In this document: piece after piece, positions 12,118 to 58,403 of the stretch
Layout of the letters: each line of letters starts with the position of its first letter
Numbering within the stretch: position 1 is the first letter of the stretch
Assembly (NCBI RefSeq): GCF_022180385.2
Contig: NZ_BQME02000001.1
Location: forward strand, 574,501-638,500
Direction of reading: 5' to 3'
Source of the DNA: Paenibacillus sp. L3-i20
GTDB taxonomy: Bacteria; Bacillota; Bacilli; Paenibacillales; Paenibacillaceae
DNA length: 64,000 bases
Position numbers and translations under genes: made by a program
The notes under the pieces: generated by a model
What the model was told of the DNA's origin: nothing
What the model saw: only the letters and a program-made list of their open reading frames with translations
The model's database searches: none

Positions 12118-12373
12118 CCAGGTAAGAGCACTATCTTTCTCTACATCTATCTGAATCATTTACTCTCGCATGCCTTCGGCAGTATGGACTTTGATTTGTT
12201 ATGCAATCTCATCCAACGTACACTAGCCTTATATAAAGTTTATGTTCCTCAGACCAGAGATTTGCCGCCGGCTTCCTTCAGATTCTACCTCATGATGGAC
12301 ACCCTTGCCTTGAGCTATGGTTACTACTGCCTTCACCATTCGGAACTAAAGACAGTGCCCATGCTGGGCACAC

Positions 12374-41314: not shown

Positions 41315-42919
41315 ATGTTGGATTTAGTATTGAAAAATGGAAAAATCGTAGATGGCAGCGGCAATCCTTGGTACCTGGGAGATGTCGGTGTAAAAGACGG
41401 TGTTATCGTCTCTGTTGGACAAATCGATCAAGAAGCTCATAACGTTATTGATGTAAATCGCAAAATTATTTCACCTGGCTTCATAGATGGTCATTGTCAC
41501 TCCGATCTCATGATTATCGATCATCCCCATAGTGATATTAAGCTTCAGCAGGGTGTGACAACAGAAGTTGTAGGCAACTGCGGCTTAGCGCCTGCACCAT
41601 TCGTCCGCAGCAAAGCGGAGCTGCTGCAAACCTATGTTCAGCCTGTATTAGGCAGTACAAGCTGGGAATGGCCTTGGGAGACTGTCGGTCAGTATATGGA
41701 TTTTGTCGCCCGCTCCCAACCTTCCGAACATATCGCTACGTATGTTGCACATGGTGCTCTGCGTATTGCTGTTATGGGGTTTGAGAATCGTCCTGCTAAT
41801 TCAGCAGAGATTGCACGGATGAAAGAATTGCTAGAAGAAGGCCTTCGTGCTGGCGCCATTGGTCTATCAATTGGTCTACTCTATGCACCGGGAAGCTATA
41901 CTTCACGAGAAGAATTAGTAGAGCTGTGCAGCGTTCTACCAAAATACAATGGCTTGTTCTCTACCCATATTCGCGGAGAAGGAAACAATCTGCTGCCGTC
42001 CGTTGCTGAGGTTATTTGGATCGCAGAACGTGCCGGCATCTCCCTTCACATCAGTCATTTGAAGGCTGCTGGCAAAGCCAACTGGGGTAAAGTGCTGGAA
42101 GCGCTAGAGCTTGTCGAAAATGCACGTGCACGTGGTATGGATGTTACGGTTGATGTATATCCATACAATGCTGGTTCAACGACACTAACTACCGTTCTTC
42201 CACCATGGGTTCTAGAAGGCGGTATCGAAGCAACATTGGAAGCGTTCCGCAACCCTTCACTAAGAGCACGAATTAAGGAAGAACTCAGTCATGAACAACA
42301 GCATTGGGATAATCTCGTTTGTTCTACTGGTTGGAATAGTATCGTTATCTCTGCTGTTCAATCCGAAGCGAACAAATCACTTGAAGGCAAACATATCGCT
42401 GAAGTTGCAGAGATACGTGGTCAACATCCCGTTGATTGCATGATGGATTTGCTTCTGGAGGAGAATGGACAGATCGCAATCGTCTATTTCCATATGTCAG
42501 ATGATGATGTGAAGCAAGTTATCGCATACGAAAAATCTTTGATCGCATCAGACAGCCTGAATTGTGAAATCGGCAAGCCTCATCCACGTACGTATGGCAC
42601 TTTCCCTCGTGTATTTGCCAAATATGTTCGTGAAGATAAGGTTCTGTCGCTGGAGCAAGCTGTTCGCAAGCTCACTTCATTCCCAGTACAGCGCTTCAAG
42701 CTGGGCAAACGCGGTCTAATCGTTCCAGGTTATCTTGCTGATATTACTGTGTTCGATATGGACACGATTCAGGATACTGCTACCTTCGCAGATCCTCGTC
42801 AATTCCCTACTGGTATTTCCCATGTCGTTGTAAATGGTCAGCTTACGATGCAACATGGTGTTCATACGCATAAACGTGAAGGTTCACTCATTCGCGCACA
42901 ACATTGCTGTTCGATTTAA
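41315..42919 (+). CDS. N-acyl-D-amino-acid deacylase (D-aminoacylase)
   Basis: 534 residues of the amidohydrolase superfamily, subtype III. The metal-binding HxH lies in SPGFIDGHCHSDLMI (about residue 64). EVVGNCGLAPAP carries the ligand cysteine characteristic of D-aminoacylases. Later metal ligands are in THIRGEGN and ISHLKAAGKANWG. It removes acyl groups from N-acyl-D-amino acids to give free D-amino acids. No signal peptide, so it is cytoplasmic. It fits between the PLP enzyme and RidA in one transcript. Confidence 0.93.
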   Translation: MLDLVLKNGKIVDGSGNPWYLGDVGVKDGVIVSVGQIDQEAHNVIDVNRKIISPGFIDGHCHSDLMIIDHPHSDIKLQQGVTTEVVGNCGLAPAPFVRSKAELLQTYVQPVLGSTSWEWPWETVGQYMDFVARSQPSEHIATYVAHGALRIAVMGFENRPANSAEIARMKELLEEGLRAGAIGLSIGLLYAPGSYTSREELVELCSVLPKYNGLFSTHIRGEGNNLLPSVAEVIWIAERAGISLHISHLKAAGKANWGKVLEALELVENARARGMDVTVDVYPYNAGSTTLTTVLPPWVLEGGIEATLEAFRNPSLRARIKEELSHEQQHWDNLVCSTGWNSIVISAVQSEANKSLEGKHIAEVAEIRGQHPVDCMMDLLLEENGQIAIVYFHMSDDDVKQVIAYEKSLIASDSLNCEIGKPHPRTYGTFPRVFAKYVREDKVLSLEQAVRKLTSFPVQRFKLGKRGLIVPGYLADITVFDMDTIQDTATFADPRQFPTGISHVVVNGQLTMQHGVHTHKREGSLIRAQHCCSI

Positions 42920-42964
42920 CGGATAGCAAGCACAAATAATACAATTTAAAAGGAGCTAACTACT

Positions 42965-43429
42965 ATGTCAAAAATCGAACAACGCCTTGCTGAGCTAGGA
43001 ATTACATTGCCAGCAACTACTGAACCAAAATTTCTTTACAAGCCAGTTAACCAAACAGGCAACCTTATTTACACGTCCGGCTTCGATTGCCGTATTGATG
43101 GTGTACTTATGTATGAAGGTAAAGTTGGCTCTGACCTAACGATTGAGCAAGGTCAAGAAGCTGCTCGCCAAGTTGTTATTAACTTGCTTGCTGCTATGAA
43201 AGCTCATCTTGGCGATTTGGATCGCGTTGTAAAAATCGTTAAAATCCTTGCTTTCGTTAACAGCGCACCTGGATTTGGCGACCAACCTTACGTCATTAAC
43301 GGCGCTTCTGATCTGCTTATCGAGGTATTCGGAGAAAACGGTCGTCACGCTCGTTCAGCTATTGGAACTAGCGACTTGCCTTTCCATACGCCAGTTGAAA
43401 TTGAACTAATTGCTGAAGTTCGTGACTAA
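42965..43429 (+). CDS. RidA-family protein (YjgF/TdcF-like)
   Basis: 154 residues in the longer RidA subgroup: GNLIYTSGFDCRIDGVLMYE, GQEAARQVVINLLAAMKAHL and HARSAIGTSDLPFHTPVEIE are the conserved blocks. RidA proteins hydrolyse reactive enamine/imine intermediates made by PLP enzymes that dehydrate serine or threonine. Its place after the PLP enzyme and D-aminoacylase supports detoxification of such intermediates, and so a dehydratase activity for the first enzyme. AAAGGAG precedes the ATG and a strong terminator follows. Confidence 0.92.
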   Translation: MSKIEQRLAELGITLPATTEPKFLYKPVNQTGNLIYTSGFDCRIDGVLMYEGKVGSDLTIEQGQEAARQVVINLLAAMKAHLGDLDRVVKIVKILAFVNSAPGFGDQPYVINGASDLLIEVFGENGRHARSAIGTSDLPFHTPVEIELIAEVRD

Positions 43430-44114: not shown

Positions 44115-44173
44115 TTCAATTCTGATAATGTAACCTCCATGCATTCAGACTTGAACACGCCTCATAGAAGACA

Positions 44174-44210
44174 ACAAGGAAGACCCGCATGGGTCTTCCT
44201 TGTCTTTGTG
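44174..44210 (+). terminator. Terminator after the 45-aa YjcZ gene
   Basis: A 13-base perfect stem (ACAAGGAAGACCC with GGGTCTTCCTTGT) with a 4-base loop is followed by CTTTG. It separates this gene from the convergent ECF operon. Confidence 0.88.
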
Positions 44211-44234: not shown

Positions 44235-44957
44235 TCACAAAAGTCCGTACTTTCTCTTCACACGATCGAGCTTCTCGATCATCGGCTTTGACAGGAAATA
44301 AAGAAATACGATAGTTGAGATTGCATGTATCATGTCAAACCAGAATGCCGACACATACGTTGCAAGCAGCGCATTCCACGAAAATTGGGAAGTAAACATC
44401 ATTAATGATCCTATATTGATGATTCCTCCATAAATAATAAAAGTCGCCAGACCTCCGAATAGGCATAATGAAAACTTCGATTTCTTAAGCCATCCTTTAG
44501 TCGCCAATAAACCAGCCAAATAACCGATAATGCCGAAACAAAACATTTGCCACGGCGTCCAAGGTCCTTGACCAAAGAAAAAATTAGAGACGAACCCCGC
44601 TGTTGCACCAACGAGAAAGCCTGCTTCTGCTCCTAAACTAATACCTGCAATAATGACGATTGCAACGACCGGTTTAAATTGCGGCAACATAAAAAACGCG
44701 CCTCTTCCCGCTACAGCTATAGCCGACATTACTGCTATTATAATTAGCTCGCGCGCTTGCGGCTTCCGATTTTCGAACACTAACGCAAAAGGGATCAGAG
44801 TATACAAAATAATAAGCAGACTAATAAAATAATATTTCCGATCATCCAGAACAAAAATGCCCATTAGAATAGTCGCTGGAATGATAACTAAAATGATAAC
44901 AGCGGCAAGTAGAGCTCGACGATTCATTGGTTTTTTCACACTTTGTAAGGCCGGCAT
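44235..44957 (-). CDS. ECF transporter S component, probably for cobalamin
   Basis: 240 residues with about six hydrophobic helices. The segments VAGRGAFFMLPQFKPVVAI, LGAEAGFLVGATAGFVSNFF and GPWTPWQMFCFGIIGYLAG are typical of ECF substrate-binding S components; the last block is shared by those of vitamin-type transporters. It is the last gene of an operon that starts behind a cobalamin riboswitch, so cobalamin or a precursor is the likely substrate. It overlaps the ATPase gene by 22 bases. Substrate assignment is an inference from regulation. Confidence 0.82.
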   Translation of the reverse strand: MPALQSVKKPMNRRALLAAVIILVIIPATILMGIFVLDDRKYYFISLLIILYTLIPFALVFENRKPQARELIIIAVMSAIAVAGRGAFFMLPQFKPVVAIVIIAGISLGAEAGFLVGATAGFVSNFFFGQGPWTPWQMFCFGIIGYLAGLLATKGWLKKSKFSLCLFGGLATFIIYGGIINIGSLMMFTSQFSWNALLATYVSAFWFDMIHAISTIVFLYFLSKPMIEKLDRVKRKYGLL

Positions 44958-46615
44958 CGGTCCACCACTTCCTCAATCGTAACTGCTTCGCTCCACATAT
45001 GACGAACCATTCGATTAGCTGCTGTTGTATAGAAGCTATTCCCTCCAAAAAATGTCCTCGCTGTATTCGTTGTAATAATTCCCCCATCAAAGAACATCGA
45101 GCACACCTCGCCATGTTTAGCGCAAAACTCAATATCATGGGATACCATCACAATCGTTACACCTTGCGTGATCAGCTTCTTCAGCACTACAGCTAACTTT
45201 TCTTTAAAAAAATTATCTAGTCCTTTCGTCGGCTCATCCAAAAGCAATATCCTTGGTTCCAGAAGCAATATTTTCGCTAATGCTGCCCGCTGCTGTTCCC
45301 CTCCACTCAAATCATAAGGATGCGCAAATTGCACATGTTCAAGCTCAGTTAAACGAACGACTTCGGCTACTTTCTGCGCTTTCACTTCATTAGACAATGG
45401 CGTGCCGGATAACATCTCAAGCAAATCAAGTTCTACCGTCTTCTTCACAAAGATTGACTGTGGATTTTGCGGAAGTACGCCTAAATAGTTTGTAAACCGT
45501 TCCTTTGCTTTCATTGCAGCTGGATTGCTGCCGCCAAGCAGTACTTTGCCACGATAAGGCTTTAGCATACCGCTTATAAGGGACAAGGCAGTCGTCTTGC
45601 CTGTGCCATTCCCTCCAACTATACAATGAAACTGTCCCTCTTTTACTTCAAGCGACAAATCTTTAATCCGATCGGGTCCGTTTTTTTCGTATCTGAACCA
45701 AACATCTTGAAGCGAGATGATCGTTTTTTTCGAGTTATCTGATGGCTCATTGCCAGCTTCTAGAAAATCAGCGGTATCACTTTTATTATGGAGGAGCGAA
45801 TTCACCCATTGCCGTCCCTCTTTCACCGTGAGCGGACTTAACTGCTCATTATCCACTTCAGCATAAATTTGCATTGGCGTTGGCATCGATTGAAAAAGCG
45901 GGTGGCCCATTTGACCCAATAGCCCTCCAACTTTACGAGGTGTATCATTAGCAATGATTGTTCCCTGATCCATAGCTATAACACGATCAGCTGCTGGTAT
46001 AATATCTTCTAATCGATGTTCCGTCATAATAATGGTTGTTCCAAGCTCTCGATTAATCCGCTTTACCGTTTCTAGAAAGTCTGATGCCGCTATCGGGTCA
46101 AGTTGAGAGGTTGGCTCATCCAAAATTAACACTTGCGGATGCATCACCATAATAGATGCCAAACATAACAACTGTTTCTGCCCGCCGGACAGCTCCGATA
46201 CGTTATTATGAAACCATCCTTGAATACCGAAAAAACTTGCCATCTCGGCTACCCGCAATCGAATCGTACGAGTATCCATTCCTAAGCTCTCTAGTCCAAA
46301 TGCCAACTCATGCCATACTTTGTCTGTTACGATCCCGTTGTCAGGATTTTGCAGCACAAATCCAATTTCGGCTGCCTGCTTCCGAGCATCAAGCGACTCA
46401 ATTGGCTCCCCTGAATAATAAATGCAGCCGCTTCTATTTCCATGCGGAGTCAGCGCAGGCTTTAAATGTCGCAGCAAAGTACTTTTCCCACTGCCCGATC
46501 TGCCGCATACTGCAACAAACTCCCCACTTTTAATCGACAAATTAATATGTGATAAAGCTTCCTTATCTCGTTCGGGAAATGTAAAGCTCAACTCTTTGAT
46601 TGCAAAGATCTCCAT
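44936..46615 (-). CDS. ECF transporter ATPase, two ATPase domains fused (EcfA-EcfA')
   Basis: 559 residues from ATG 46615 (GGAGG 7 bases upstream); the longer frame to 46657 lies inside ecfT. The first ATPase has GRSGSGKSTLLRHL, SGGQKQLLCLA and LILDEPTSQLDPIA. A linker follows (about 270-320), then a second ATPase with GGNGTGKTTALSLI, LSGGEQQRAALA and LLLDEPTKGLD. Most ECF systems use two separate genes; here one polypeptide supplies both. It powers uptake together with EcfT and the S component. Confidence 0.92.
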   Translation of the reverse strand: MEIFAIKELSFTFPERDKEALSHINLSIKSGEFVAVCGRSGSGKSTLLRHLKPALTPHGNRSGCIYYSGEPIESLDARKQAAEIGFVLQNPDNGIVTDKVWHELAFGLESLGMDTRTIRLRVAEMASFFGIQGWFHNNVSELSGGQKQLLCLASIMVMHPQVLILDEPTSQLDPIAASDFLETVKRINRELGTTIIMTEHRLEDIIPAADRVIAMDQGTIIANDTPRKVGGLLGQMGHPLFQSMPTPMQIYAEVDNEQLSPLTVKEGRQWVNSLLHNKSDTADFLEAGNEPSDNSKKTIISLQDVWFRYEKNGPDRIKDLSLEVKEGQFHCIVGGNGTGKTTALSLISGMLKPYRGKVLLGGSNPAAMKAKERFTNYLGVLPQNPQSIFVKKTVELDLLEMLSGTPLSNEVKAQKVAEVVRLTELEHVQFAHPYDLSGGEQQRAALAKILLLEPRILLLDEPTKGLDNFFKEKLAVVLKKLITQGVTIVMVSHDIEFCAKHGEVCSMFFDGGIITTNTARTFFGGNSFYTTAANRMVRHMWSEAVTIEEVVDRCRPYKV

Positions 46616-47481
46616 TTTATTTCCTCCAACAGATGGATAATGACAGGCAGCATACATAATAAAAAATATGCAAAATAGATAATGAGGCTAATAGGAGTCA
46701 CTTCCGCTGCTTTTATTGATGGAAAAAACCGCATCTCGATATATCCCCTGATTGCTCCGAAAATAATGACAGCAGATAAACTCGTCATTATAATGGCGAT
46801 AATTTGATCACGTCGTACGAATCGATAAGTTGAAAAGCTGGTTCGATTAGGCAAGCCGTATCCTCTCGATTTCATAGAATCGGCTGTTTCTATAGCATTT
46901 TCAAGCGCCCATGTCGTCATAATAGAAAGAATCGTTAGTCCTTGTCGTGCTCGGTTCAGCAGACTCCCCTGCGAAACATCTCGCCCTATACTTTTCTGAG
47001 CATAAGAGATAACTTTTAATTGGGCAATGTACCTTGGAACGAAACGAAGCACCATGGAGAGGATCAAAGAAAGTGCAGGCATTATTTTGCCAAAAAGGTA
47101 AATAAATTTGTCTGAGGTCATCACTGCATTGTAACAAGAAAACCATATCAGCACGGTTACGAACATACATGCCGCAGCTGCTCCGAACAAAATCGATTCA
47201 AGCGTAATGGGATTGCCGTTTTTTAAATAAAACAAAATGGTAACACCCGCATGATTAAACACAGGGTTCAAAACTGCCATAACAAGGAGTAGCGGGAGCA
47301 TATAGACTAAATTAAATCGAATGGCTCTCCTGCCATTCAGCAAGACAGCGTACAGGACAGCACTTATTAATGCGATGCCTTGCATATAAAGATGCATAAA
47401 TACCATGCTAAACATTAAAACAAGAGCGAAATAGATTATATTGACGACAGGATGATAGGAAGAAAAGCTGTCTCTTTTCAT
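46588..47481 (-). CDS. ecfT: ECF transporter transmembrane coupling protein EcfT
   Basis: 297 residues with five or six helices. The coupling motif lies in NAIETADSMKSRGYGLPNRT, where the SRG signature of EcfT proteins contacts the ATPases. The gene overlaps the DUF4430 protein gene by 4 bases and the ATPase gene by 28 bases, which indicates tight translation coupling of the whole transporter. It links ATP hydrolysis to toppling of the S component. Confidence 0.9.
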   Translation of the reverse strand: MKRDSFSSYHPVVNIIYFALVLMFSMVFMHLYMQGIALISAVLYAVLLNGRRAIRFNLVYMLPLLLVMAVLNPVFNHAGVTILFYLKNGNPITLESILFGAAAACMFVTVLIWFSCYNAVMTSDKFIYLFGKIMPALSLILSMVLRFVPRYIAQLKVISYAQKSIGRDVSQGSLLNRARQGLTILSIMTTWALENAIETADSMKSRGYGLPNRTSFSTYRFVRRDQIIAIIMTSLSAVIIFGAIRGYIEMRFFPSIKAAEVTPISLIIYFAYFLLCMLPVIIHLLEEIKWRSLQSKS

Positions 47482-48407
47482 TCGGCTTTACTCGTTGCAG
47501 CAGTGTCTGCGCCAACGTCACGGCCTAAATCACAAGTGTACACCCACTCAATAACATCACCATCTGTCAAAGCATATCGGCTGCTTCCGTAGTTCGGATA
47601 CCAATCATTCACCTTATATAGCCATCCGCTTAATTCGCCACAGTCAAACTCATATATATTGTTAATGCCTTCTATATAATTGCTGTTATAGATTGGGGTC
47701 ATATTAAATTCCATATGAATTTTATTGTTTTTCATCTCTCTGAGAAGTACATCAAACACAGATTCCCCTTCATAAAAGGCAACTGCTGCCTCGGGGTAGA
47801 TAATCCCGTCTTCCGGCAATACTTCAAGCTTATCTTCATTGAACTTATCCAAGTTATTCAAAATCGTTGCAGCCGATATCGACAACGTCACTGATCCTGT
47901 TTTTTTCTTGTTGATCGTAGTGTCTTGCCACTCAACTGGCTTTGGCTTACCTTCTGGTACTGGTTCTGTTTCATACTTATCTTTTTTCGGTTTTGCTGTT
48001 GTTGTAGGACTCGCTTTAGCTGTCGTCTTGCCAGGCTTTTCAGGATTTTCAGGCTTTGTAGTCTCTGTAGGCTTTGAAGTCTTTGAAGGTTTTTCAAGCT
48101 TTATGGGCTTCTCAACTTCCGGCTTTTTGCTAACTTGACCGGCTGGTTCCGATGTCTCACTCACTTCGGTCGGCTTTACCGTTGGAACAGGTGAAGGTGT
48201 ACTCGTTGGTTGATCTGTCCCTTTAACATTGGTTGTAGGAGTAGGTTCTTGCTGAACTTCCGCAGATGACGCAGACTTTGATTCCGACATTTCCAACGTT
48301 TCGACTGGCAGCTTTTCCGTATCATTCGGCACATCTTCGCCCCAGAAAAAAGCGATAGCCAGTACCCCTGCAATGAGGCAAGCCCAAAGCCAATTCTTCG
48401 CATTCAT
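47478..48407 (-). CDS. Membrane-tethered transcobalamin-like (DUF4430) protein
   Basis: 309 residues from ATG 48407 (GGTGGG about 10 bases upstream). One N-terminal transmembrane helix (NWLWACLIAGVLAIAFFWG, about 5-23) has no lipobox. A long P/T/K/E-rich spacer (about 30-165) with KPTETTKP-like repeats could cross the cell wall. The C-terminal DUF4430 (transcobalamin-like C-terminal) domain runs from about 178 to 295, with VAFYEGESVFDVLLREM, FDCGELSGWLYKVNDWYPNY and GDVIEWVYTCDLGRDVG. Set between the surface protein and EcfT, it is a plausible relay that passes cobalamin to the importer. Confidence 0.88.
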   Translation of the reverse strand: MNAKNWLWACLIAGVLAIAFFWGEDVPNDTEKLPVETLEMSESKSASSAEVQQEPTPTTNVKGTDQPTSTPSPVPTVKPTEVSETSEPAGQVSKKPEVEKPIKLEKPSKTSKPTETTKPENPEKPGKTTAKASPTTTAKPKKDKYETEPVPEGKPKPVEWQDTTINKKKTGSVTLSISAATILNNLDKFNEDKLEVLPEDGIIYPEAAVAFYEGESVFDVLLREMKNNKIHMEFNMTPIYNSNYIEGINNIYEFDCGELSGWLYKVNDWYPNYGSSRYALTDGDVIEWVYTCDLGRDVGADTAATSKAE

Positions 48408-48434
48408 ATTGCAGCATCCCACCTTAAATAGATA

Positions 48435-48462
48435 AGCAAGGGTGTATGCAACCACCCTTGCT
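48435..48462 (-). terminator. Intercistronic hairpin between the surface protein and relay genes
   Basis: A perfect 10-base stem (AGCAAGGGTG with CACCCTTGCT) closes an 8-base loop. The minus-strand flank (TATCTATTT) is only moderately U-rich. It could be a partial terminator or an RNA-stability element setting different amounts of the surface protein and the transporter. Confidence 0.6.
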
Positions 48463-48477
48463 CAGCTCTTTATGTCA

Positions 48478-51400
48478 TTACTTCACGTCGGTCATATCAT
48501 AAAGACGACTTTTACCATTCAAAAATCTTTCGTAAGCTACAAGGGCGTACATCGATTGATCAGTAGCCATAATATCTACTTCGCCTGGTTTCGTCCCTCC
48601 ATTTGTGATGCCTTCTTTTTTAATATGATAGAAACCGCCACCTGGAGCGGCGAAGCTAAGCAATGCGTCTATAGCCGATTTGCCGTTTTTGACAAATCTA
48701 GCATCCCTATGAGGATCGATGCCAAGACCTGTTAAAGCTACAATCACTTGAGCGATGCTTTCAGCATTAATAGAATCGCCGCTTGCGTAGCTTCCATCAG
48801 CCTTTTGAGCTTTAGACAACCAGTTCAAACCTTGTTCTATTGCAAGTTTTGCTTTTGCATTCGTTGCATGGTAAGGCGTCAACGCTTGAATCGCCATTGC
48901 AGTAATATCTGGATCGGCGTTGACAGCTTTTTCGCCTAGCGCCCAACCTCCGCCAGCAATTTCTCTGTTCAAAATAAAGTCGATCAATAACTCCCTTGTC
49001 GTCTGTGTTTTCACATCTTTTACAAGTGGAATTTCATACTTATTACTATCCAATGCTAACAACGCAAAGATAGGTCCGTTAATGCCTTGTTTTGTTAACG
49101 TGTCGAAGTCTGCAAGAGGCTCTCTCAAGTTATAACCTGCTACGTTGTCAACATTTTTTCCAATAGCAGTTAACGCAAGGATTACCCGATCATATTCCGT
49201 ATATTTGATAGAATGCAGCTTGCCGGACTTTTCTTTCAAGATACGTTCAACATTGGCATAATACTTCGCATAGTACGCTTCATCTGCCGGAACATTCGAG
49301 CGCGCTAGAGAAAATACCGTCCATTCTCCACCAATGCTTGCTATAACGGGGTCTTTGACTGTCTTTTGCAGATAAGCCGCTGTTTCTTTTATTTGCTTGT
49401 CAACGGCTGGTTTAAGATCCGCTATGGGATCGACTTGCTTGTTTCCACTCTTATTTTTGTAGTCAAAAGCTCTTAATGCAACAACAGTTGCCATTTCTCT
49501 TGTTACTACATCTTGTGGTTCGAAATTATTTTCGCTTCCTACCATCAATTGTTTTGCAACGATTGATTCTACTGCTTCTTTAGCCCATGAGGACACATCT
49601 TCAATGTCCTTAAGACCAGACTGCCCAGAAATAGCTTGTAATTTGAGCGCTCTGCTTACTGTTACAGCCATTTGCTCACGCGTAATGTTTTGGTTCGGGT
49701 TAAACTTTCCGTTGTAGCCAGTTATATACTCCGCCCCAGCCGCTGCTTGAACATAAGGATAGTACCAGTCTTTAACGGTAACATCACTAAAGCTGCTATT
49801 GCTGGCTTTGCTCGTGTCGAGACCAACTACGGAAACTAGCATTTTTGCAAACTCAGCACGCGTAATGGTGGATTTCGGCTTAAAGCTGCCGTTATTCCCT
49901 TGAACAATACCCTTTGCTGTAGCGTCAGCAACCGCTAGCTTCGCCCAATCGGATATTGTAGCTGCATCACCGTACAACTCTTGAAGTTCAGTCTTTTTTG
50001 TTGTGTAAATAACAAATGATGCTACATAGTTTGTTTTGATGATTAAATCATTGCCTTGAACAAAAGCATAAGCGATACGTTCTTTGCCTTTTGCTGCTGT
50101 GTTGCCCTCTGCTTCCGTTTCATAAGTTGGAATGGACAAGAAAGCACCGTTTGCTATTGTTCCTGACAGCTGACCTTTACCGTCTTTAATTGAAACGGTA
50201 ATCGGTTTATCAACCTTAATCGGATTAGCTGCATCACCGATAACAAAACCATGCTGAATACGATCAAACTTATTTTGACTAGCTAGGCTAGACGCAATAT
50301 ACTCCTGCCACTTTGTCGTTCCTTGCTCCTGTGCTGTAAACAGCTCAAGCTTGTTAGATTTCGTCGTTAGCTTAGTTCCCTTCTCAATACGTGCCGACAG
50401 ATTGCCTTTATTAATCGTAAGCTGCGGAATATCGTTGACAACGTCGACTAGATTTAAGAAAACTTTTGCTTTCACATCAGGGATATTGATAGTTACACTC
50501 TCGATATCAGTCGTTCTTTTCGATAGACGAAGCGTGTAATCCTTCTGAATGTCGCGTGGCACGTCGACCACAGTAAGCTTGCCATTTAGTTCAACTAACT
50601 TCTCTTGCGCAAGTGTTCCAGACGCTCCGCCACCTGAATTCGTCCCGCCCGTTCCGTTATTGGCTTTTAAATCTTCACCCATATTTTTCGTATAGCGCCA
50701 CTCTATCTTGTCGCCATTTTTTAATTCAGTAAGACTAGCTCCGATATTCGGATATGTCCCATTGACGTTATACATCCAGCCGCTGCCGCTTCCATGATTC
50801 AATTCACCGTCGCCAGCAATGGATACAACATATACGCTGTTAAAATTAGAGTACCACCTGTAGTCATACACAATGTTTCTGCTATCAAGTACTCTCTTCA
50901 ATACTGACCAAGCTGTATCGCCAGGAATCAACGTTACAGTCGTAGTCGACACCGTGTATCCCTTATTAATCGTCAGTTTATCAACGGATACCGTTACTTG
51001 GTTAATTGGCAGTGGAGATGTGCTACCGTTATCTTTCGCCGTTGTAGAATAAGCAATAAAATCGGTAAAATGTTTTGTTTTAACGATTAAATCACTACCG
51101 CTATCATAAGCATATTCCCCTTTGCCGCTTGCTTTGCCAAGCTCATCGCTTCCGTACTTTTGAATAACTTGAGCTTTTCCACTTTGTAGGAATGCTGCTT
51201 CTTTACCGGCCATGCCTGCGAACGTTAACGTAACAAAATCACTGAACTCAGTCTTAATCGTACCGCCCATGCGAGTACCAAAAACGAGCTCATTTAAATT
51301 TCTGTTCGAAGGGACAAGATCCCTAATTTTGTTGCGCAGGGACGAATCAGCAACGTCCACATTCGTAATTAATTCAATATTATTGTTGTTGCCGCTAATA

Positions 51401-53787
51401 ATTTTTGTACCTTTTGGAATGACAATTGTCGCTTGGCCTTTAACAGCTTTAATACCCGGAAGATTACTGTCTAGCAATTGCAGGAATACTTTAGACTGTT
51501 TATCGCTAGGGATTGTTATGGCTATATCCTTTGCGCTGTCTGTTAATTTAATTGGAATAAAATATTCTTTATAATCTTGTGGAACTGTAACCTCAGGTTT
51601 ATTGCCCTCTGGAAGATTGATCAGCGTAGGCTTTTCTGGCATCTTCTCAGGAACATCCGTCATATCATAAAAGCGGTTTTTCTTATTAATAAATCGATCA
51701 TATGCATTTAAGGCATATGTCCCTTGATCAGTTGACATACCATTCGCTTTGACTGCCTTAGCATCTTTGGGCAAAGCATGTATGAATCCACCACTTGGCA
51801 CAGCAAAACTTAATAGCGAGTCAAGAGCAGACTTGCCGTTTTTAACAAAACGCGGATCTTTATGCGGATCAATGCCAAGACCCGTTAAAGCTACAATCGT
51901 TTGTGCAGCACTTTCACTTGCGGCTACACCATAGGATACGAAATCACCATTGCTATTTTGTAGCTGTGACAATAGGTTTATACCTCTATCAACAGCAGCC
52001 TTAGCCTCAGCATTCGAATTATAATACGGCGTGAGGCTTTGAATAGCCATTGCGGTCATATCTGGATCTGGTTTTGCTCCAAAGAATGCCCAGCCGCCCC
52101 ACTTTTCCGTTCCCTTATTCAATTCCTTATCAAGAATATTAGTGATAAGATTCTCTCTCGTTGTCTGAGTAATTCCTTCTTTTGCCTTAGGGATTGTATA
52201 TTTATTGCTATCCATCGCCAATAAAGCAAAGACAGAACCGTTAATGCCTTGTTTGCTCGGATAGTTGTGATCCGCAAGCGCAGCACTTAGATCGTATCCG
52301 GCAACATTTTTTATATCTCTGCCAATAGCAGTAAGACCTAATATTGTTCTGGAATGCTCTGTACTGTTGTATTTATGCAGCACTCCATTATTTTTAACCA
52401 TGTTTTCTTTTACTTTTTCAGCGACATTATTGTAATAGGTATCATAATAACCAGGATTTACGGGGTAATTTGATCTCGCCAAAGCAAGAATCGTCCACTC
52501 CATCCCATATTGCAGATTTTGAGACGTTTGAAGTATGTATTCTAACGATTTGACCAAATGACCTTTCGGATCGATGTCGTAATAGAGTACAAAAAATGAC
52601 TTTGTTGCTTTATTGCCTGCCACATCAACGGCATCTACAGTAATCAAATTGTCCTGCTCACTTAGAACAACTTTGTAGGGGCCAGTTGTTTTCTCTAATG
52701 AAACTCCATTCAACTTAACTTCTGTGTCCACTGCGTCATAGATGTTATCTGTTACTGCCACATTAAATGCAATATTATTCGCTGAAACAGACTGATACGC
52801 CGCTAAACCTTCCACCACAATTTCTGGTGCGGTTTTATCTGGCTCGTTAGCTTTTGAAATTGCAGCTTGTAATTGTACATTTGCCGCATCGATACTCTCT
52901 TGTGTACTCTCTAAGTTAGCCAATATTTCATTGGCATGGAGGTAAGCTACTCTAATCGTTTTTTGTAACAGTAGAGCAGTCTTATTCGGATTTACGTTAA
53001 TATCACTAATCGCTACTGTAAGCGCATCTTTGTTCGCTGGCGTTATAACATTACCATCCCAGCCCCCTCCAATATCCGCTCCATAACCGTAGAGAGTAAA
53101 TTGTGTTCTTATGACATCCCCATCTTTAGGGAAATAAGCTGACATCCCTACGCTAAGAAAAGCATTATTGACTGACGCCATCCAGCCGGACATTTTATAA
53201 TAGTCAGATGCTCCAAGCCAATTCGGATCTACTTTTGTTCCTATTGAACCGTCTTTACTTATTGCATCTACTATCTTAGTTGGAATATTAACTGGACGAG
53301 CATCACTATTTTTTATTCCGGTTAAATAAAAGTTTTCTTCGATGCTACCGCCGTTCTTAAAGTTGCCTTCTCCTAGCGCTCTCGCCAAGACGGCAGCGCC
53401 ATTGTCACCTTGGTAAATCGGAGCTTTAATTGGCTCTACTACATATCCTTGTCCTAGGGTGAACTTCTCAACCGTTACCGTTACTTGGCCAGTTAATGGC
53501 TTAGGAGCAGGTGATTCGACTGGAACTATTGGTTTTTCAACAGGTGGTTCTCCTGGAATTTCAATCGGAGGTTCCACTGGAGTTTCAGTTGGTGGTACTA
53601 CTGGAACTTCTACTGGAGGTTCAGCTGGGAGTTCAGTTGGAGGTACTACTGGAACCTCAGCAGGTGTTTCCACTTGAGGTACGACTGTTAGTGCACCATC
53701 TGCAAGTACAGGGGTTAAATTAGTTGAAAACAGCGAAAGAAACACACTAACAATGAGCAACCAAGCTATAAATCTATTCTTTTTCAT
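48478..53787 (-). CDS. Giant SLH surface protein with two transcobalamin-like and two alpha/alpha-toroid domains
   Basis: 1769 residues. A signal peptide (1-30) and a Pro-rich spacer of TPVEPP-like repeats (33-97) come first. DUF4430 domain 1 (about 97-242), a helical linker, an Ig-like domain (314-398) and a prenyltransferase/terpene-cyclase-like toroid 1 (402-709) follow. Then come a beta-rich part, DUF4430 domain 2 (928-1034, with GSGSGWMYNVNGTYPNIGAS), a second beta-rich part, three SLH repeats (about 1274-1442) and toroid 2 (1452-1769). The toroids are close copies of each other (GINGSVFALLAMDSNKY and GINGPIFALLALDSNKY). Animal intrinsic factor also combines a toroid with a DUF4430-like domain. 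With the cobalamin riboswitch upstream, surface cobalamin capture is the likely role. Confidence 0.88.
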   Translation of the reverse strand: MKKNRFIAWLLIVSVFLSLFSTNLTPVLADGALTVVPQVETPAEVPVVPPTELPAEPPVEVPVVPPTETPVEPPIEIPGEPPVEKPIVPVESPAPKPLTGQVTVTVEKFTLGQGYVVEPIKAPIYQGDNGAAVLARALGEGNFKNGGSIEENFYLTGIKNSDARPVNIPTKIVDAISKDGSIGTKVDPNWLGASDYYKMSGWMASVNNAFLSVGMSAYFPKDGDVIRTQFTLYGYGADIGGGWDGNVITPANKDALTVAISDINVNPNKTALLLQKTIRVAYLHANEILANLESTQESIDAANVQLQAAISKANEPDKTAPEIVVEGLAAYQSVSANNIAFNVAVTDNIYDAVDTEVKLNGVSLEKTTGPYKVVLSEQDNLITVDAVDVAGNKATKSFFVLYYDIDPKGHLVKSLEYILQTSQNLQYGMEWTILALARSNYPVNPGYYDTYYNNVAEKVKENMVKNNGVLHKYNSTEHSRTILGLTAIGRDIKNVAGYDLSAALADHNYPSKQGINGSVFALLAMDSNKYTIPKAKEGITQTTRENLITNILDKELNKGTEKWGGWAFFGAKPDPDMTAMAIQSLTPYYNSNAEAKAAVDRGINLLSQLQNSNGDFVSYGVAASESAAQTIVALTGLGIDPHKDPRFVKNGKSALDSLLSFAVPSGGFIHALPKDAKAVKANGMSTDQGTYALNAYDRFINKKNRFYDMTDVPEKMPEKPTLINLPEGNKPEVTVPQDYKEYFIPIKLTDSAKDIAITIPSDKQSKVFLQLLDSNLPGIKAVKGQATIVIPKGTKIISGNNNNIELITNVDVADSSLRNKIRDLVPSNRNLNELVFGTRMGGTIKTEFSDFVTLTFAGMAGKEAAFLQSGKAQVIQKYGSDELGKASGKGEYAYDSGSDLIVKTKHFTDFIAYSTTAKDNGSTSPLPINQVTVSVDKLTINKGYTVSTTTVTLIPGDTAWSVLKRVLDSRNIVYDYRWYSNFNSVYVVSIAGDGELNHGSGSGWMYNVNGTYPNIGASLTELKNGDKIEWRYTKNMGEDLKANNGTGGTNSGGGASGTLAQEKLVELNGKLTVVDVPRDIQKDYTLRLSKRTTDIESVTINIPDVKAKVFLNLVDVVNDIPQLTINKGNLSARIEKGTKLTTKSNKLELFTAQEQGTTKWQEYIASSLASQNKFDRIQHGFVIGDAANPIKVDKPITVSIKDGKGQLSGTIANGAFLSIPTYETEAEGNTAAKGKERIAYAFVQGNDLIIKTNYVASFVIYTTKKTELQELYGDAATISDWAKLAVADATAKGIVQGNNGSFKPKSTITRAEFAKMLVSVVGLDTSKASNSSFSDVTVKDWYYPYVQAAAGAEYITGYNGKFNPNQNITREQMAVTVSRALKLQAISGQSGLKDIEDVSSWAKEAVESIVAKQLMVGSENNFEPQDVVTREMATVVALRAFDYKNKSGNKQVDPIADLKPAVDKQIKETAAYLQKTVKDPVIASIGGEWTVFSLARSNVPADEAYYAKYYANVERILKEKSGKLHSIKYTEYDRVILALTAIGKNVDNVAGYNLREPLADFDTLTKQGINGPIFALLALDSNKYEIPLVKDVKTQTTRELLIDFILNREIAGGGWALGEKAVNADPDITAMAIQALTPYHATNAKAKLAIEQGLNWLSKAQKADGSYASGDSINAESIAQVIVALTGLGIDPHRDARFVKNGKSAIDALLSFAAPGGGFYHIKKEGITNGGTKPGEVDIMATDQSMYALVAYERFLNGKSRLYDMTDVK

Positions 53788-53837
53788 GAATATAATCTTC
53801 CTCTCGTTCTAGTAATGTCTTAATACATGATGGCAAC

Positions 53838-53873
53838 AAAAAAACCTCTTACCGCGGAACGGCAAAGAGGTTT
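53838..53873 (-). terminator. Expression-platform terminator of the cobalamin riboswitch
   Basis: On the minus strand AACCTCTT-CCG pairs with CGG-AAGAGGTT around a short loop, followed by TTTTTTG. It lies between the aptamer and the surface protein gene, so control is probably by transcription termination when cobalamin is bound. Confidence 0.9.
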
Positions 53874-53944
53874 AAACGAACATACAGCAAATATGCATGT
53901 ACAAATAAACACCTTCCTATCCTACGTAGAATTAATGGTGTAGC

Positions 53945-54155
53945 AAAACAGGCAGGTATTCTGGCTCAAGTATCATCATTTCTGCAGCCTTCCCGGTTTC
54001 CCAGTGGCATCTAGCAAAAACTCCTCTTATACAGCGGCGGGACCGCGTGAGATTTGCACTCACTTCCCTTTTAACCAACTCTACGACTGAACTGACATCA
54101 ATTCATATAAAATCATATGACTTTATGTGACATTTTTCGCAATTGGCACCTGTTT
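53945..54155 (-). promoter_or_regulatory. Cobalamin riboswitch
   Basis: The minus strand shows the B12-element landmarks in order: ACAGGTGCC at the 5' end, AAAAGGGAAGTGAGTGCAAA with the following GGTCCCGCCGCTGT block, the segment GATGCCACTGG, and AGCCAGAATACCTGCCTGT at the 3' end. This aptamer senses adenosylcobalamin-type ligands. It precedes the surface protein and ECF genes and is followed by a terminator, so the operon should be off when cobalamin is plentiful. Confidence 0.96.
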
Positions 54156-54310
54156 CATCTATTCAATTATCCTGACAATCATAGCCCATATTTTTCCGCT
54201 TGTCATTCATTTCTTAAATATTTGGTAAATCACTCTATACAGCTCGTTATTCTCGCTAATATAGGTGTTATGTAGTAGAATAGTGACACTATTCCTAAAG
54301 AGGTGTCCGA

Positions 54311-54711: not shown

Positions 54712-56289
54712 TCATAGTTTCATAAGTTCATCCATAATCACTTGTCGGCCTAATGGCGTCCAGCTCATTGCAAACCAATTGTGAATGATTCTAACATGAT
54801 CCTGCTGTACAGCAGGAATACTGCTCCACATATCTGTTTGTACTAATCGCTGGAACATACTATCGCTGCCGGCTAGCACATGATGTTTATGAATAAAAAG
54901 ATACTCCGTTTCTAGAAGCGGCAGAGTTTCAGGCGACATCTCCTGTCTCCATATATCCCCCATTTCTGGAGCGCCAGGCTTTAAAGCGAGATCACCGTAA
55001 ATCAATTCATTTAAAGGATGACCCGCTGTCCCCTGTATTCCGATCGCTCGATGACTGACTTGTATAATCGTTACACTTCGTTTCTCAAACTTTTGTTGCA
55101 GAGCGTGCTTAACCTCCACTGTCCGCATTTCCAGTCGAGTGATCGTTTGATCAGCCATACTCTCCTGACCAAGAAGCTCCGCTACTTTAATAAAATTCCT
55201 CTTCCAATCCCATGCTGATAAATCGAGAAATACGAGAGCTGCAATTTCTTTAAATAATTCTCTAAATTCCGTATGATAATCATCTGCAATAATAAGATCA
55301 GGATTAGACTTAATCAACTCATCTATTTGACTACGGGAATGTTCCCCGTACTCCTTTTCACTTACTCCCGGATAATGAAATAAATCAAGTACACATACAG
55401 GCTCAATACCTATTGCGTTCAAATACTGCTGAAATCCTAGCGAGGAAGCTACCGCTACTCTACATGTTTTTCGTTTCATATATAGGGTAGGCGATACTCC
55501 AACCGTACGCTGAAACATTCTACTGAAGTAGAACTCGCTTCGAAATCCGACATTGGCGGCAACCTCTTTGACACGATTTTGGCTATTGCTCAACAATTGC
55601 TTCGCCTTATTCATTCGAATGGAACCTAAATATTCAACTGGCGTAGATCCGATAATATTAATGAACAAACGGGAATAAGCAACAGGCGACATGCCCGCTA
55701 CTTCGGCGAGCTTCCCAATGCTTATTTTATCGATATAATGTTGTTTCATATAGTCAATGCTCCGATCGATACGCTCATCACTTCGTTCGATCGACTCTGG
55801 CTCAGCTTCAATAATGGAAAGAATTAATTGCTCCAGTTGTAAACGAAGCGATAAACTGTCTTTCGCTCGTTCATTTCTACTGTTGTCATACATATGTACA
55901 ATCCGCTGCAATATTTGTTGTGGCTGGGAGATCGCAATACGGCCTGGAAGGAATGGACCTGAAAGAGAGATCGAACTCGACATTACCATACTCCCTTTTG
56001 TCTTCACTAACGTTATAGGTTGAAAAAATACTCCGTAATATTTAAAGCCATCCGAACGTTCGGATACTTCCACAACCATTCCTGGCACTAGTAAATATAG
56101 TTCAAACGGGCGAATATTACACAACATACCGTCGAGCAATACGATGCCTTCACCTTCAGTAATAAAACATAATAAATAAACCGGAATTCGGTACATTCGA
56201 ACACCTGACTTACCTGCAAACTTTCTTTTTCGTACCGATGAAAAAAGGTATAGCGATTGTGTATGAGTCTGGATAGCATGAGGCAACAT
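54712..56289 (-). CDS. Btr-like AraC regulator fused to a siderophore-binding domain
   Basis: About 525 residues from ATG 56289; a GTG at 56304 is an alternative. The N-terminal cupin-like arm is followed by an AraC helix-turn-helix pair (SIGKLAEVAGMSPVAYSRLF and VKEAANVGFRSEFYFSRMFQ-like, about residues 195-275). A periplasmic-binding-type domain then makes up the C-terminal half (about 285-525, with DELIKSNPDLIIADDYHTEF). This architecture is that of Bacillus Btr, which senses ferric bacillibactin directly and activates its importer. Here it follows siderophore operon 2 on the same strand and is probably its ligand-dependent activator. Confidence 0.9.
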   Translation of the reverse strand: MLPHAIQTHTQSLYLFSSVRKRKFAGKSGVRMYRIPVYLLCFITEGEGIVLLDGMLCNIRPFELYLLVPGMVVEVSERSDGFKYYGVFFQPITLVKTKGSMVMSSSISLSGPFLPGRIAISQPQQILQRIVHMYDNSRNERAKDSLSLRLQLEQLILSIIEAEPESIERSDERIDRSIDYMKQHYIDKISIGKLAEVAGMSPVAYSRLFINIIGSTPVEYLGSIRMNKAKQLLSNSQNRVKEVAANVGFRSEFYFSRMFQRTVGVSPTLYMKRKTCRVAVASSLGFQQYLNAIGIEPVCVLDLFHYPGVSEKEYGEHSRSQIDELIKSNPDLIIADDYHTEFRELFKEIAALVFLDLSAWDWKRNFIKVAELLGQESMADQTITRLEMRTVEVKHALQQKFEKRSVTIIQVSHRAIGIQGTAGHPLNELIYGDLALKPGAPEMGDIWRQEMSPETLPLLETEYLFIHKHHVLAGSDSMFQRLVQTDMWSSIPAVQQDHVRIIHNWFAMSWTPLGRQVIMDELMKL

Positions 56290-56340
56290 TAGGTAAACAA
56301 GCACCTGCCTTCCATAAAACTACAATGTCTATCTCTCTTA

Positions 56341-57309
56341 TTATATGACTCTACGTCGAATCAGCAAAGTAATCATATAAGGTGCTCCAAGCAACGCTGT
56401 AATTAGCCCTACTGGTATTTCGAATGGGGAAAATATAGTTCTTCCCAATAAATCAGCACTCATAACAATTAATCCACCTAAGAGCGCCGCAACAGGCAGC
56501 CGCTTTAAACTTCTGTTGCCAACTAAATGTGAAGCCATATGCGGCGCCATTAATCCAACAAATGATATCGTACCTGCCATTGATACTGCGGAACCCGCTA
56601 ATCCGACACTAAAGAGCAGGAGAGAAAAACGTATTAATTCCAATCGCAATCCTATCCCAACAGCCATGACATCACTTAATTGCAGTAAATCAAGATGGCG
56701 TGTAAATAGTAGCAACAACACAAATAAAAGACTAATCCAAGGTAAAAGCGGCCAAAAATTGTCCCATGTCCGTCCATATAAACTGCCAGCCATCCAAACA
56801 AATGCTTGTGAAACTTTAAATACTTGGCCTATCGTCAACAAATAGGTAATTAGAGCTCCAGCCATCGCAGATATGCCGATTCCAACTAATAAAACTCGTT
56901 CAGTAGAGCTACCCTTTTTCCAAGATAAATTGTAGATGACAAGTGCAGTCACCAAGGCACCACCAAATGCAACCCAAGGCAGATGGCTCATTGAAAACGT
57001 TGGGACAAGCACTAGAACGGCCACTACTGCGGCTGCGGCCCCTGCATTAAGCCCAATGACACCCGGAGAAGCTAATGGATTACGCGTAATAACTTGCAAT
57101 ATCGTCCCCGACAAAGCTAATCCGCACCCTGCCAAAAAACCGACCAGAACTCTTGGCAACCGTAAATGGCGAATGGTAAAAGCATACTCATCATTGCCCA
57201 CACTAAACGCAGTCAAGATCGCATCTATAACAGGAATATTTCTTTCTCCGATTACGTATTCAATAGGAATACGAACACATTCATAACTAACAGAACGGAA
57301 ACGATCCAT
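56341..57309 (-). pseudogene. FecCD siderophore permease with frameshifted N-terminus
   Basis: From ATG 57309 the frame gives 322 residues that match a FecCD permease from VIGERNIPV onward (RLPRVLVGFLAGCGLALSGT, then FVGLMAPHMASHL and GAPYMITLLIRRR). The expected first transmembrane helix is absent in this frame but present in the next one, at about 57320-57255 (FVWIVSVLLVMNVFVFLLNT), just before a stop. A one-base shift near 57250 would join the two. That frame has an ATA where a start codon would sit 9 bases after GGGGGAG. Either the gene is damaged, or the sequence has an error, or a shortened protein is made from ATG 57309. Confidence 0.75.
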
Positions 57310-57337
57310 ACAAAGCGCCTACTTTGGATTAAGGGTA

Positions 57338-58327
57338 TTATAGCGATCTCCCCCGTCTCTGTGCCAAATAAATTAAAAATGGAGCTCCAAAAAATGCTGT
57401 TACAACTCCAACGGGAATTTCCTGTGCAGGGAGTACAAATCGTGAACCAATGTCTGCTAATAATAAAAGAAGTGCGCCGAGTAAAGCAGCATACGGAATA
57501 ATCCATCGATAATTCAATCCAACTAAAGAACGAGCAATATGAGGAATGGCAAGACCTATAAATCCAATCGGACCAGCAATAGCAACCGAACTGCCCGCTA
57601 GAATCACAATGACGATGATACAAAGAACTTTAATAAGAAACACACGCTCACCAAGCCCTTGAGCCATGTGCTCCCCGAGAACGATAATATTTAAATGTTT
57701 GCTGAGACAGAACGCACAAATTAAGCCAAATAGTATGTAAGGAAAAACGGCTATAAACAATTGAATATCTCTGCCCGTAACAGAACCAGCAAGCCAAAAA
57801 CGCATTGTATCCAAAGATTGCTCATTCAAAATGAGTATCCCTTGTGTAATCGATGTAAGCAATAGATTAATGGTCGCTCCCGCCAATACAAGCTTTATAG
57901 GCGTCAACGATTCTCTGCCAATTGAACCAAGCAGGAACACAGACGCACCTGCTATTCCAGCACCTACAATTGCCGACCAAGTAAAAACGGAAAGTGCGGT
58001 GGAATTCATTACAATAGACACAATAACTACTGCTAGAGCAGCACCACTATTTACCCCAAATATTTCGGGACCAGCAAGTGCGTTCCTGCTTAACGCCTGC
58101 ATCAAGCATCCAGCCACTGCAAGTGCTCCGCCTACTGCTGCTGCGATAAGTGCTCTTGGTACCCTGACTGTTCGGATAATTAACTGGTCATATGTTCCAT
58201 CAAATGACCAGATTGCATTTAATGCAGATGTGAATGGAACCTGGACAATGCCAAAGGAAATGCTAGATACAAGCGCAACAGCTACTAGAATAAAAAGAAC
58301 GATCAATCCCATCAATCTGGCCTTCAA
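57338..58327 (-). CDS. FecCD-family siderophore ABC permease (first subunit, operon 2)
   Basis: About 329 residues from TTG 58327, which has GGAGG 8 bases upstream; ATG 58312 with GAAGG is an alternative, and the frame extends to 58396. The motifs VRVPRALIAAAVGGALAVAG, MQALSRNALAGPEIFGVNSG, PIGFIGLAIPHIARSLVG and GAPFLIYLAQRRG are intact. It should pair with the downstream permease as the membrane channel for ferric siderophore. As in operon 1, no ATPase gene is present. Confidence 0.9.
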   Translation of the reverse strand: MKARLMGLIVLFILVAVALVSSISFGIVQVPFTSALNAIWSFDGTYDQLIIRTVRVPRALIAAAVGGALAVAGCLMQALSRNALAGPEIFGVNSGAALAVVIVSIVMNSTALSVFTWSAIVGAGIAGASVFLLGSIGRESLTPIKLVLAGATINLLLTSITQGILILNEQSLDTMRFWLAGSVTGRDIQLFIAVFPYILFGLICAFCLSKHLNIIVLGEHMAQGLGERVFLIKVLCIIVIVILAGSSVAIAGPIGFIGLAIPHIARSLVGLNYRWIIPYAALLGALLLLLADIGSRFVLPAQEIPVGVVTAFFGAPFLIYLAQRRGRSL

Positions 58328-58403
58328 TTTCCATACCTCCAGCGAATATGTATAAAATAAACGAACAAAAATTGGGCCGTCTTGTGGACGACCCAATCTT
58401 TAC

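Follow-up and report, generated by a model that had tools for sequence, protein, structure and literature searches.

In 2007 Burroughs, Balaji, Iyer and Aravind described exported bacterial proteins in which a toroid is fused to an SLBB domain, encoded in operons that also carry a second, paralogous SLBB protein and genes for a CbiO ATPase and a CbiQ membrane protein. The hosts usually lack key enzymes of B12 synthesis, and the authors concluded that the toroid-SLBB systems of Gram-positive bacteria scavenge B12 or its precursors (PMC1796856). Here and below, statements on published work refer to excerpts of the cited papers. The operon analyzed here lies in a 64,000-nucleotide stretch of the Paenibacillus sp. 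L3-i20 genome (the window; contig NZ_BQME02000001.1, positions 574,501 to 638,500) and has in common with those systems the DUF4430/SLBB β-grasp-toroid fusion, the second SLBB protein and the CbiO/CbiQ genes. Given the 2007 prediction, it is therefore an instance of a kind already foreseen. It is probably a large and widespread version of that B12-capture idea, in which a wall-anchored giant protein catches B12 for an importer.

The nearest described importer is ECF-CbrT of Lactobacillus delbrueckii, the energy-coupling factor (ECF) transporter of entry 6FNP. CbrT has high affinity for both cobalamin and cobinamide, and the ECF-CbrT complex imports the two (PMC5997447). The S component and EcfT of that transporter are homologous to those of the operon, whereas the operon encodes an ECF module with fused ATPases beside its S component and adds surface DUF4430 and toroid proteins. 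BtuG/BtuB and other surface B12 lipoproteins of Bacteroides resemble the operon in placing surface capture ahead of an importer (PMC6143338, PMC10404256), but they belong to a Gram-negative outer membrane, and the likeness meant is one of function. A published table carries the label 'Additional lipoprotein component of putative cobalamin ECF transporter' (PMC9963975), and the UniRef name 'Transcobalamin-like C-terminal ...' stands on some relatives among the matches listed. No experiment showing that a DUF4430 or toroid-DUF4430 protein of bacteria binds B12 was found in the open-licence literature, a search that leaves subscription papers mostly outside and does not prove absence. Compared with the excerpted text of the 2007 paper, where the term 'S-layer' has no occurrence, the new elements are an S-layer homology (SLH)-anchored giant with a domain inserted between toroid and β domain, a near-complete riboswitch linkage from a genome survey, the assignment of the S component to the CbrT type, a fold ranking against animal carriers, and a split arrangement of toroid and tethered DUF4430 protein.

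The operon runs on the minus strand from window position 54206 to 44173 in the order riboswitch, giant, membrane-tethered DUF4430 protein (the tethered protein), EcfT, EcfA-EcfA' and S component. The initial annotation of the window had named a cobalamin riboswitch, a terminator, the SLH giant, the tethered DUF4430 protein, EcfT, a fused EcfA and an S component, and each of these was recovered at the position and on the strand given there. D denotes DUF4430 domains and B toroids in the following features.

54178..54206, minus strand: candidate sigma-A promoter (ATGACA-17-TATGAT) upstream of the riboswitch; 10 of 12 positions match in a consensus scan
53934..54117, minus strand: cobalamin riboswitch aptamer RF00174; 98.1 bits, E = 2.8e-23, full model 1-189
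~53838..53873, minus strand: intrinsic terminator hairpin and U run between the aptamer and the first gene; RNA folding, pattern scan and sequence
48478..53787, minus strand: giant wall-anchored protein, 1769 residues; open reading frame, Pfam and our own domain hidden Markov models (HMMs)
53059..53493, minus strand: D1, first DUF4430 domain of the giant, residues 99-243; own HMM
51652..52584, minus strand: B1, α/α toroid, residues 402-712; AlphaFold model residues 7-317 of 650, Foldseek, VIA
51046..51606, minus strand: M1, β-rich insert separating the toroid from the DUF4430 domain, residues 728-914; AlphaFold strands 337-522, own HMM over relatives
50668..51000, minus strand: D2, second DUF4430 domain, a β-grasp with hairpin insert, residues 930-1040; Pfam 956-1034, model strands 535-638
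49453..49947, minus strand: three SLH domains, residues 1281-1445; Pfam E = 1e-32, PDB matches to S-layer proteins
48484..49401, minus strand: B2, second α/α toroid at the very C terminus, residues 1463-1768; Pfam SQHop_cyclase_C at 1607-1682, identity to B1
48433..48464, minus strand: intercistronic stem-loop between the genes of the giant and the tethered protein; 12-pair stem
47478..48407, minus strand: tethered protein, 309 residues from the ATG at 48407; Pfam E = 7.7e-15
46588..47481, minus strand: EcfT; best PDB match EcfT, E = 6.6e-9
44936..46657, minus strand: fused ATPase EcfA-EcfA', 573 residues; two ABC_tran stretches, TIGR04520 above cut-off
44235..44957, minus strand: CbrT-like S component; PF07155/PF12822, PDB 6fnp_A
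44173..44204, minus strand: terminator-like hairpin at the operon end; 14-pair stem followed by a T-rich tail

The aptamer scores far above the RF00174 gathering score of 31.5 bits. The effector of the cobalamin riboswitch is adenosylcobalamin (PMC3766115). An expression platform is present, with the terminator hairpin and U run preceding the first gene, and folding of the segment 53940-53840 gives -29.9 kcal/mol, with z = -3.67 relative to shuffled sequences.

From its N to its C terminus the giant consists of a signal peptide, recognized by inspection, D1, an Ig-like stretch (a Glucodextran_B match below the Pfam cut-off), B1, M1, D2, a segment M2, three SLH domains and B2. PF14478 scores 70.6 bits for D2, 58.8 bits for the tethered protein and 31.3 bits for D1, all above the cut-off of 23.8; the D1 match, from the genome search, covers profile positions 34-70 only. 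Pfam finds three SLH, two DUF4430 and two SQHop_cyclase_C stretches in the giant, the two toroids share 54% identity over 294 residues (the B1 boundaries are a cut chosen by us), and the entire chain contains no cysteine.

Structure models covered the segment from the first toroid to the second DUF4430 domain, and the tethered protein. A likeness to intrinsic factor and transcobalamin had been proposed in the initial annotation, with structure comparison set beforehand as its test, and both models resemble these carriers. For the toroid-to-DUF4430 segment, Foldseek gave 1056 matches, the top 15 of which are all chains of transcobalamin, intrinsic factor or haptocorrin, and the VIA structure alignment with the cobalamin carriers spans model residues 9-640. 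As in the animal proteins, an α/α toroid is followed by a β-grasp domain in one chain. Differences are that the giant is cell-wall-anchored, has two toroids and two β domains with a third β domain on the tethered protein, and carries between toroid and DUF4430 the β-rich domain M1 of about 190 residues. The relative placement of B1 and D2 is uncertain (predicted TM-score 0.56; root-mean-square deviation over the two domains 8.8). The D2 model has a helix (564-574) followed by strands 579-584 and 589-595, a β-hairpin after the helix of the β-grasp. A β-grasp with a β-hairpin following the helix is a feature of the transcobalamin-like SLBB clade (PMC1796856). The structure alignments comprised 50 rows each, including the window's own piece, out of 120 proteins listed per search. 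PDB sequence searches with the giant and with alignment profiles of the giant and tethered proteins contained no transcobalamin, intrinsic factor or haptocorrin chain and returned SLH, cyclase and chance-like matches. The likeness to the animal carriers is accordingly argued from fold, and sequence homology to them is not asserted.

A rival explanation takes the toroids for surface enzymes, terpene-cyclase-like or carbohydrate-active, with a purely regulatory link to B12. Class II cyclases have a DXDD acid motif, and the two barrels show DPDMTAM and DPDITAM in its place. Together with the Foldseek ranking, in which the cobalamin carriers stand above cyclases once DUF4430 is included, this makes the enzyme explanation highly improbable.

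The tethered protein has a hydrophobic N terminus that reads as a membrane anchor without a lipobox. It shares 35% identity with D2, and its fold search matches the β domains of haptocorrin, transcobalamin and intrinsic factor; the model has pLDDT below 50 where D2 has its post-helix β-hairpin. The start is most likely the ATG at 48407 rather than the GTG at 48455 of the open reading frame list, because the resulting 309 residues equal the length of the relative P0122 and a ribosome-binding-like AAGGTGGG lies upstream. The GTG falls inside the intercistronic hairpin (48464-48433). In an alignment of close relatives with 50 rows, C272 and C308 (325-residue numbering) occur in every row; they may form a disulfide or contact a ligand.

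Riboswitch linkage was surveyed across the family, where PF14478 occurs in 84 of 197 genomes (14 of 19 genera), this genome included. RF00174 was sought in 61 of the 84, again with this one included and 23 left out; two of the 61 (G018 and G044) have no listed DUF4430 place, which leaves 59 genomes in the count. A DUF4430 place was scored as linked when a same-strand RF00174 match at or above the gathering score lay within 10 kb upstream, after seven matches below that score had been dropped. Linkage was found at 104 of 110 places among the matches listed, and riboswitch-DUF4430 pairs occur in all 59 genomes. DUF4430 genes thus stand almost always behind B12 riboswitches in this genome and its 58 counted relatives, in agreement with what the initial annotation led us to expect. 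Among the six exceptions, two places (G072:C9 and G082:C70) have an RF00174 match below the gathering score upstream and one (G064:C27) is 410 bases from a contig end. Seen from the other side, at least 67 of 160 riboswitches are paired with DUF4430 places; the riboswitch numbers are lower bounds, with 57-58 first-look candidates scored in most genomes. With about 2.6 riboswitches per genome of roughly 6 Mb, we estimate that well under one such pair is expected by chance; DUF4430 places that share an operon are not independent.

Named close relatives of the giant and the tethered protein are mostly Paenibacillus among the matches listed. Operon structure was read with domain HMMs in 39 further family loci, a non-random set picked by hand for a spread of genera and for unusual cases. 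A full set of EcfT, EcfA and S occurs in 26 of them, in the order (giant)-DUF4430-EcfT-EcfA-S, and 13 have no complete ECF set (L080 and L081 have an S-like gene only; L051 is cut by a contig end). Beyond the family, RF00174 lies upstream in four of five more distant loci checked out of 11 fetched, namely three metagenome-assembled genomes of Peptococcaceae or Clostridia and one Caldibacillus, and is absent at L034; the L035 riboswitch is barely above the RF00174 cut-off. A phylum sample gave matches to the domain of the tethered protein in 73 of 398 genomes at E ≤ 0.001, and many of the weak rows are other DUF4430 proteins. An association of DUF4430 with loss of B12 synthesis was considered and set aside as main evidence, being weak: of the 84 genomes that match PF14478, 13 have CbiD, as do 32 of the 113 that do not (p = 0.04 by Fisher's test, uncorrected for kinship).

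The S component has a single PDB match with E ≤ 1, 6fnp_A (E = 7e-14, query residues 66-238), followed by 4hzu_S at E = 2.4. Chain A of 6fnp has 182 residues and appears in the table as 'Membrane protein'; it was identified as CbrT by elimination. Sequence comparison thus relates the S component to CbrT, a link absent from the initial annotation. EcfT has no Pfam match; its best-matching PDB EcfT sequence also occurs in entry 6fnp. A match to the SCO2321 family was rejected because it scores 63 bits against an NCBIfam cut-off of 300, and a literature search on SCO2321 to SCO2325 turned up nothing related. The ATPase is also above the NCBIfam cbiO subfamily cut-off, and CbiO/CbiQ genes have been implicated in cobalt transport (PMC1796856). 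The operon could on this ground be a cobalt importer with metal-binding surface proteins, and a fold match of the tethered protein, 3u7z, does bear the title putative metal binding protein. The S component argues otherwise by matching PF12822/PF07155 and CbrT, and in a host that has no CbiD any cobalt taken in would probably not be made into corrin. We regard cobalt import as very improbable.

The operon very probably serves corrinoid scavenging through riboswitch-controlled wall capture and ECF import. Low intracellular adenosylcobalamin would let transcription pass the riboswitch, and the giant would be exported, with its SLH domains anchoring it in the cell wall. There the modules of toroid plus DUF4430 would clamp cobalamin or cobinamide as transcobalamin and intrinsic factor do. 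The tethered protein probably takes part near the membrane and may receive the ligand from the giant and pass it to the S component, and the dedicated ECF transporter with its CbrT-type S component would import it. Computation establishes the riboswitch and its linkage in relatives, the domain composition, the transcobalamin-like fold of the segment from B1 to D2, the kinship with CbrT and the conservation of the operon; corrinoid binding, display on the wall, import and the hand-off are inferred from these. The initial annotation regarded such a system as a Gram-positive counterpart of the intrinsic factor system. The fold comparison, the riboswitch survey and the CbrT-like S component strengthen that reading, but it is less new than was supposed, having been in print since 2007 (PMC1796856).

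Architectures vary among relatives. In the best 120 of 571 relatives of the giant, its own sequence included, the most frequent layouts are D-i-B-m-D-SLH-B (15) and D-i-B-m-D-m-SLH-B (9). Five genomes of one genus (L116-L120) encode a compact wall protein composed of a signal-like start, a toroid, a divergent DUF4430 domain immediately behind the toroid, and SLH domains, with 691-762 residues in four and 854 in the longest open reading frame of L119. Toroid and β domain here stand in the simple order of transcobalamin, with a wall anchor added. The DUF4430 domains score 30-38 bits with our own HMM in all five; L116, the one checked with Pfam, reaches 18.8 bits with PF14478, below the cut-off, and a PF14478 search therefore misses some DUF4430 domains.

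In these five genomes the compact protein stands behind its own B12 riboswitch and the DUF4430-EcfT-EcfA-S set behind another. Giant toroid/DUF4430/SLH proteins behind their own B12 riboswitches also occur at L048, L049 and L075, where the sequence fetched around them contains no ECF genes. Both arrangements would suit a giant that is mainly a reservoir or competition device holding B12 at the surface, while the ECF transporter (with the tethered protein) and a BtuFCD-type importer take in free corrinoid independently. Yet the giant is the first gene of an ECF operon in several genera. The gene of the tethered protein, recognized in 24 of 30 phylum-sample loci (own included), also has a toroid within 1.5 kb in 20 of the 24, upstream in 18 and only downstream in two, with none in four. 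A role mainly in holding B12 is accordingly rated unlikely. An MBOAT acyltransferase gene lies near the L049 giant.

Under the scavenging reading, the parts may form two clamps. B1 and D2 would make up one full clamp, and B2 with the tethered protein a second in trans. The corrinoid would move from the first clamp, on the wall, to the second, and this split clamp would open by separation of its two polypeptides and deliver the corrinoid to the CbrT-type S component. B2 and the tethered protein are suggested as the two halves because toroids without a DUF4430 domain of their own adjoin the gene of the tethered protein and because no DUF4430 follows B2. Secreted toroid-only genes of 343-365 residues lie directly before it at L033, L034 and L100 (L101 is alike, with an open 5' end), and SLH-toroid genes of 545-556 residues, whose length leaves no room for a DUF4430 domain, precede it at L050, L076 and L083. 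The toroid within 1.5 kb of its gene in 20 of the 24 phylum-sample loci also speaks for this pairing; EcfT is next to it in 19 of the 24. Several observations weigh against a split clamp. Four of the 24 loci have no toroid (L106, L107, L109 and L111, with the weakest scores for the tethered protein); at L066-L070 a DUF4430-EcfT-EcfA-S set has no toroid nearby and a complete toroid-DUF4430 wall protein is encoded elsewhere; and adjacency is also expected of any operon. The placement of toroid and DUF4430 on separate riboswitch units in L116-L120 was rejected as proof, the compact chains there holding both. The split clamp is possible but doubtful, and we offer it tentatively.

The host genome (5.3 Mb, two contigs) has no match to CbiD, and de novo corrin synthesis is therefore probably absent. 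MetH is present (L045), and a second B12-binding domain occurs in an open reading frame of about 600 residues (L044). The only other RF00174 match in the genome (L085, G000:C2 583964-592000) is followed by genes for a BtuF-type binding protein, a FecCD permease, an ABC ATPase, CobT, CobU, CbiB, CobS and an aminotransferase. From its gene content this locus looks like cobinamide salvage with a classical BtuFCD-type importer. Taken together, the lack of CbiD, the presence of MetH and these genes make the host look like a scavenger that can finish cobinamide and has two importers.

The same gene set bears on the ligand. The operon could import a corrinoid-related molecule other than cobalamin, such as cobinamide only, α-ribazole or a lower-ligand base, with the surface protein tuned to it. 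A host without CbiD that keeps CobT, CobU, CbiB and CobS matches could make use of precursors, and the separate BtuFCD-type importer is also behind a B12 riboswitch. Set against this, the sole significant PDB relative of the S component is CbrT, whose complex takes both cobalamin and cobinamide, and the toroid-plus-DUF4430 build is that of full cobalamin carriers. A ligand other than cobalamin is quite unlikely.

Further signals concern expression within the operon. The promoter scan is weak evidence: it yields 36 sites, and shuffled sequences give 27.8 on average. Based on the longest open reading frames, 22 nucleotides separate the giant from the tethered protein, and the following genes overlap by 4 (tethered protein/EcfT), 70 (EcfT/EcfA-EcfA') and 22 nucleotides (EcfA-EcfA'/S); the starts of the last two frames may be too early. 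The intercistronic stem-loop stands out in a 91-nucleotide fold (z = -3.25; 0 of 200 shuffles fold as well) and may provide a higher dose of wall protein than of importer.

Upstream of the operon, at 54712-58396 on the minus strand, an AraC-type regulator fused to a periplasmic-binding-protein domain precedes two FecCD permeases. The fusion has a far-below-cut-off match to the bacillibactin regulator Btr, and the domain content makes the unit look like iron-siderophore uptake. Beside the operon end, an amidohydrolase-family gene and, after it, a YjgF/RidA-type gene occupy 41315-43429 on the opposite (plus) strand. A Group II catalytic intron (RF02001, 120.6 bits) lies at 12127-12299 on the minus strand.

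If the surface modules bind B12, a bacterial relative of the human intrinsic factor/transcobalamin system would be active in Gram-positive bacteria. Regulator, wall receptor and importer would then be combined in one transcription unit.

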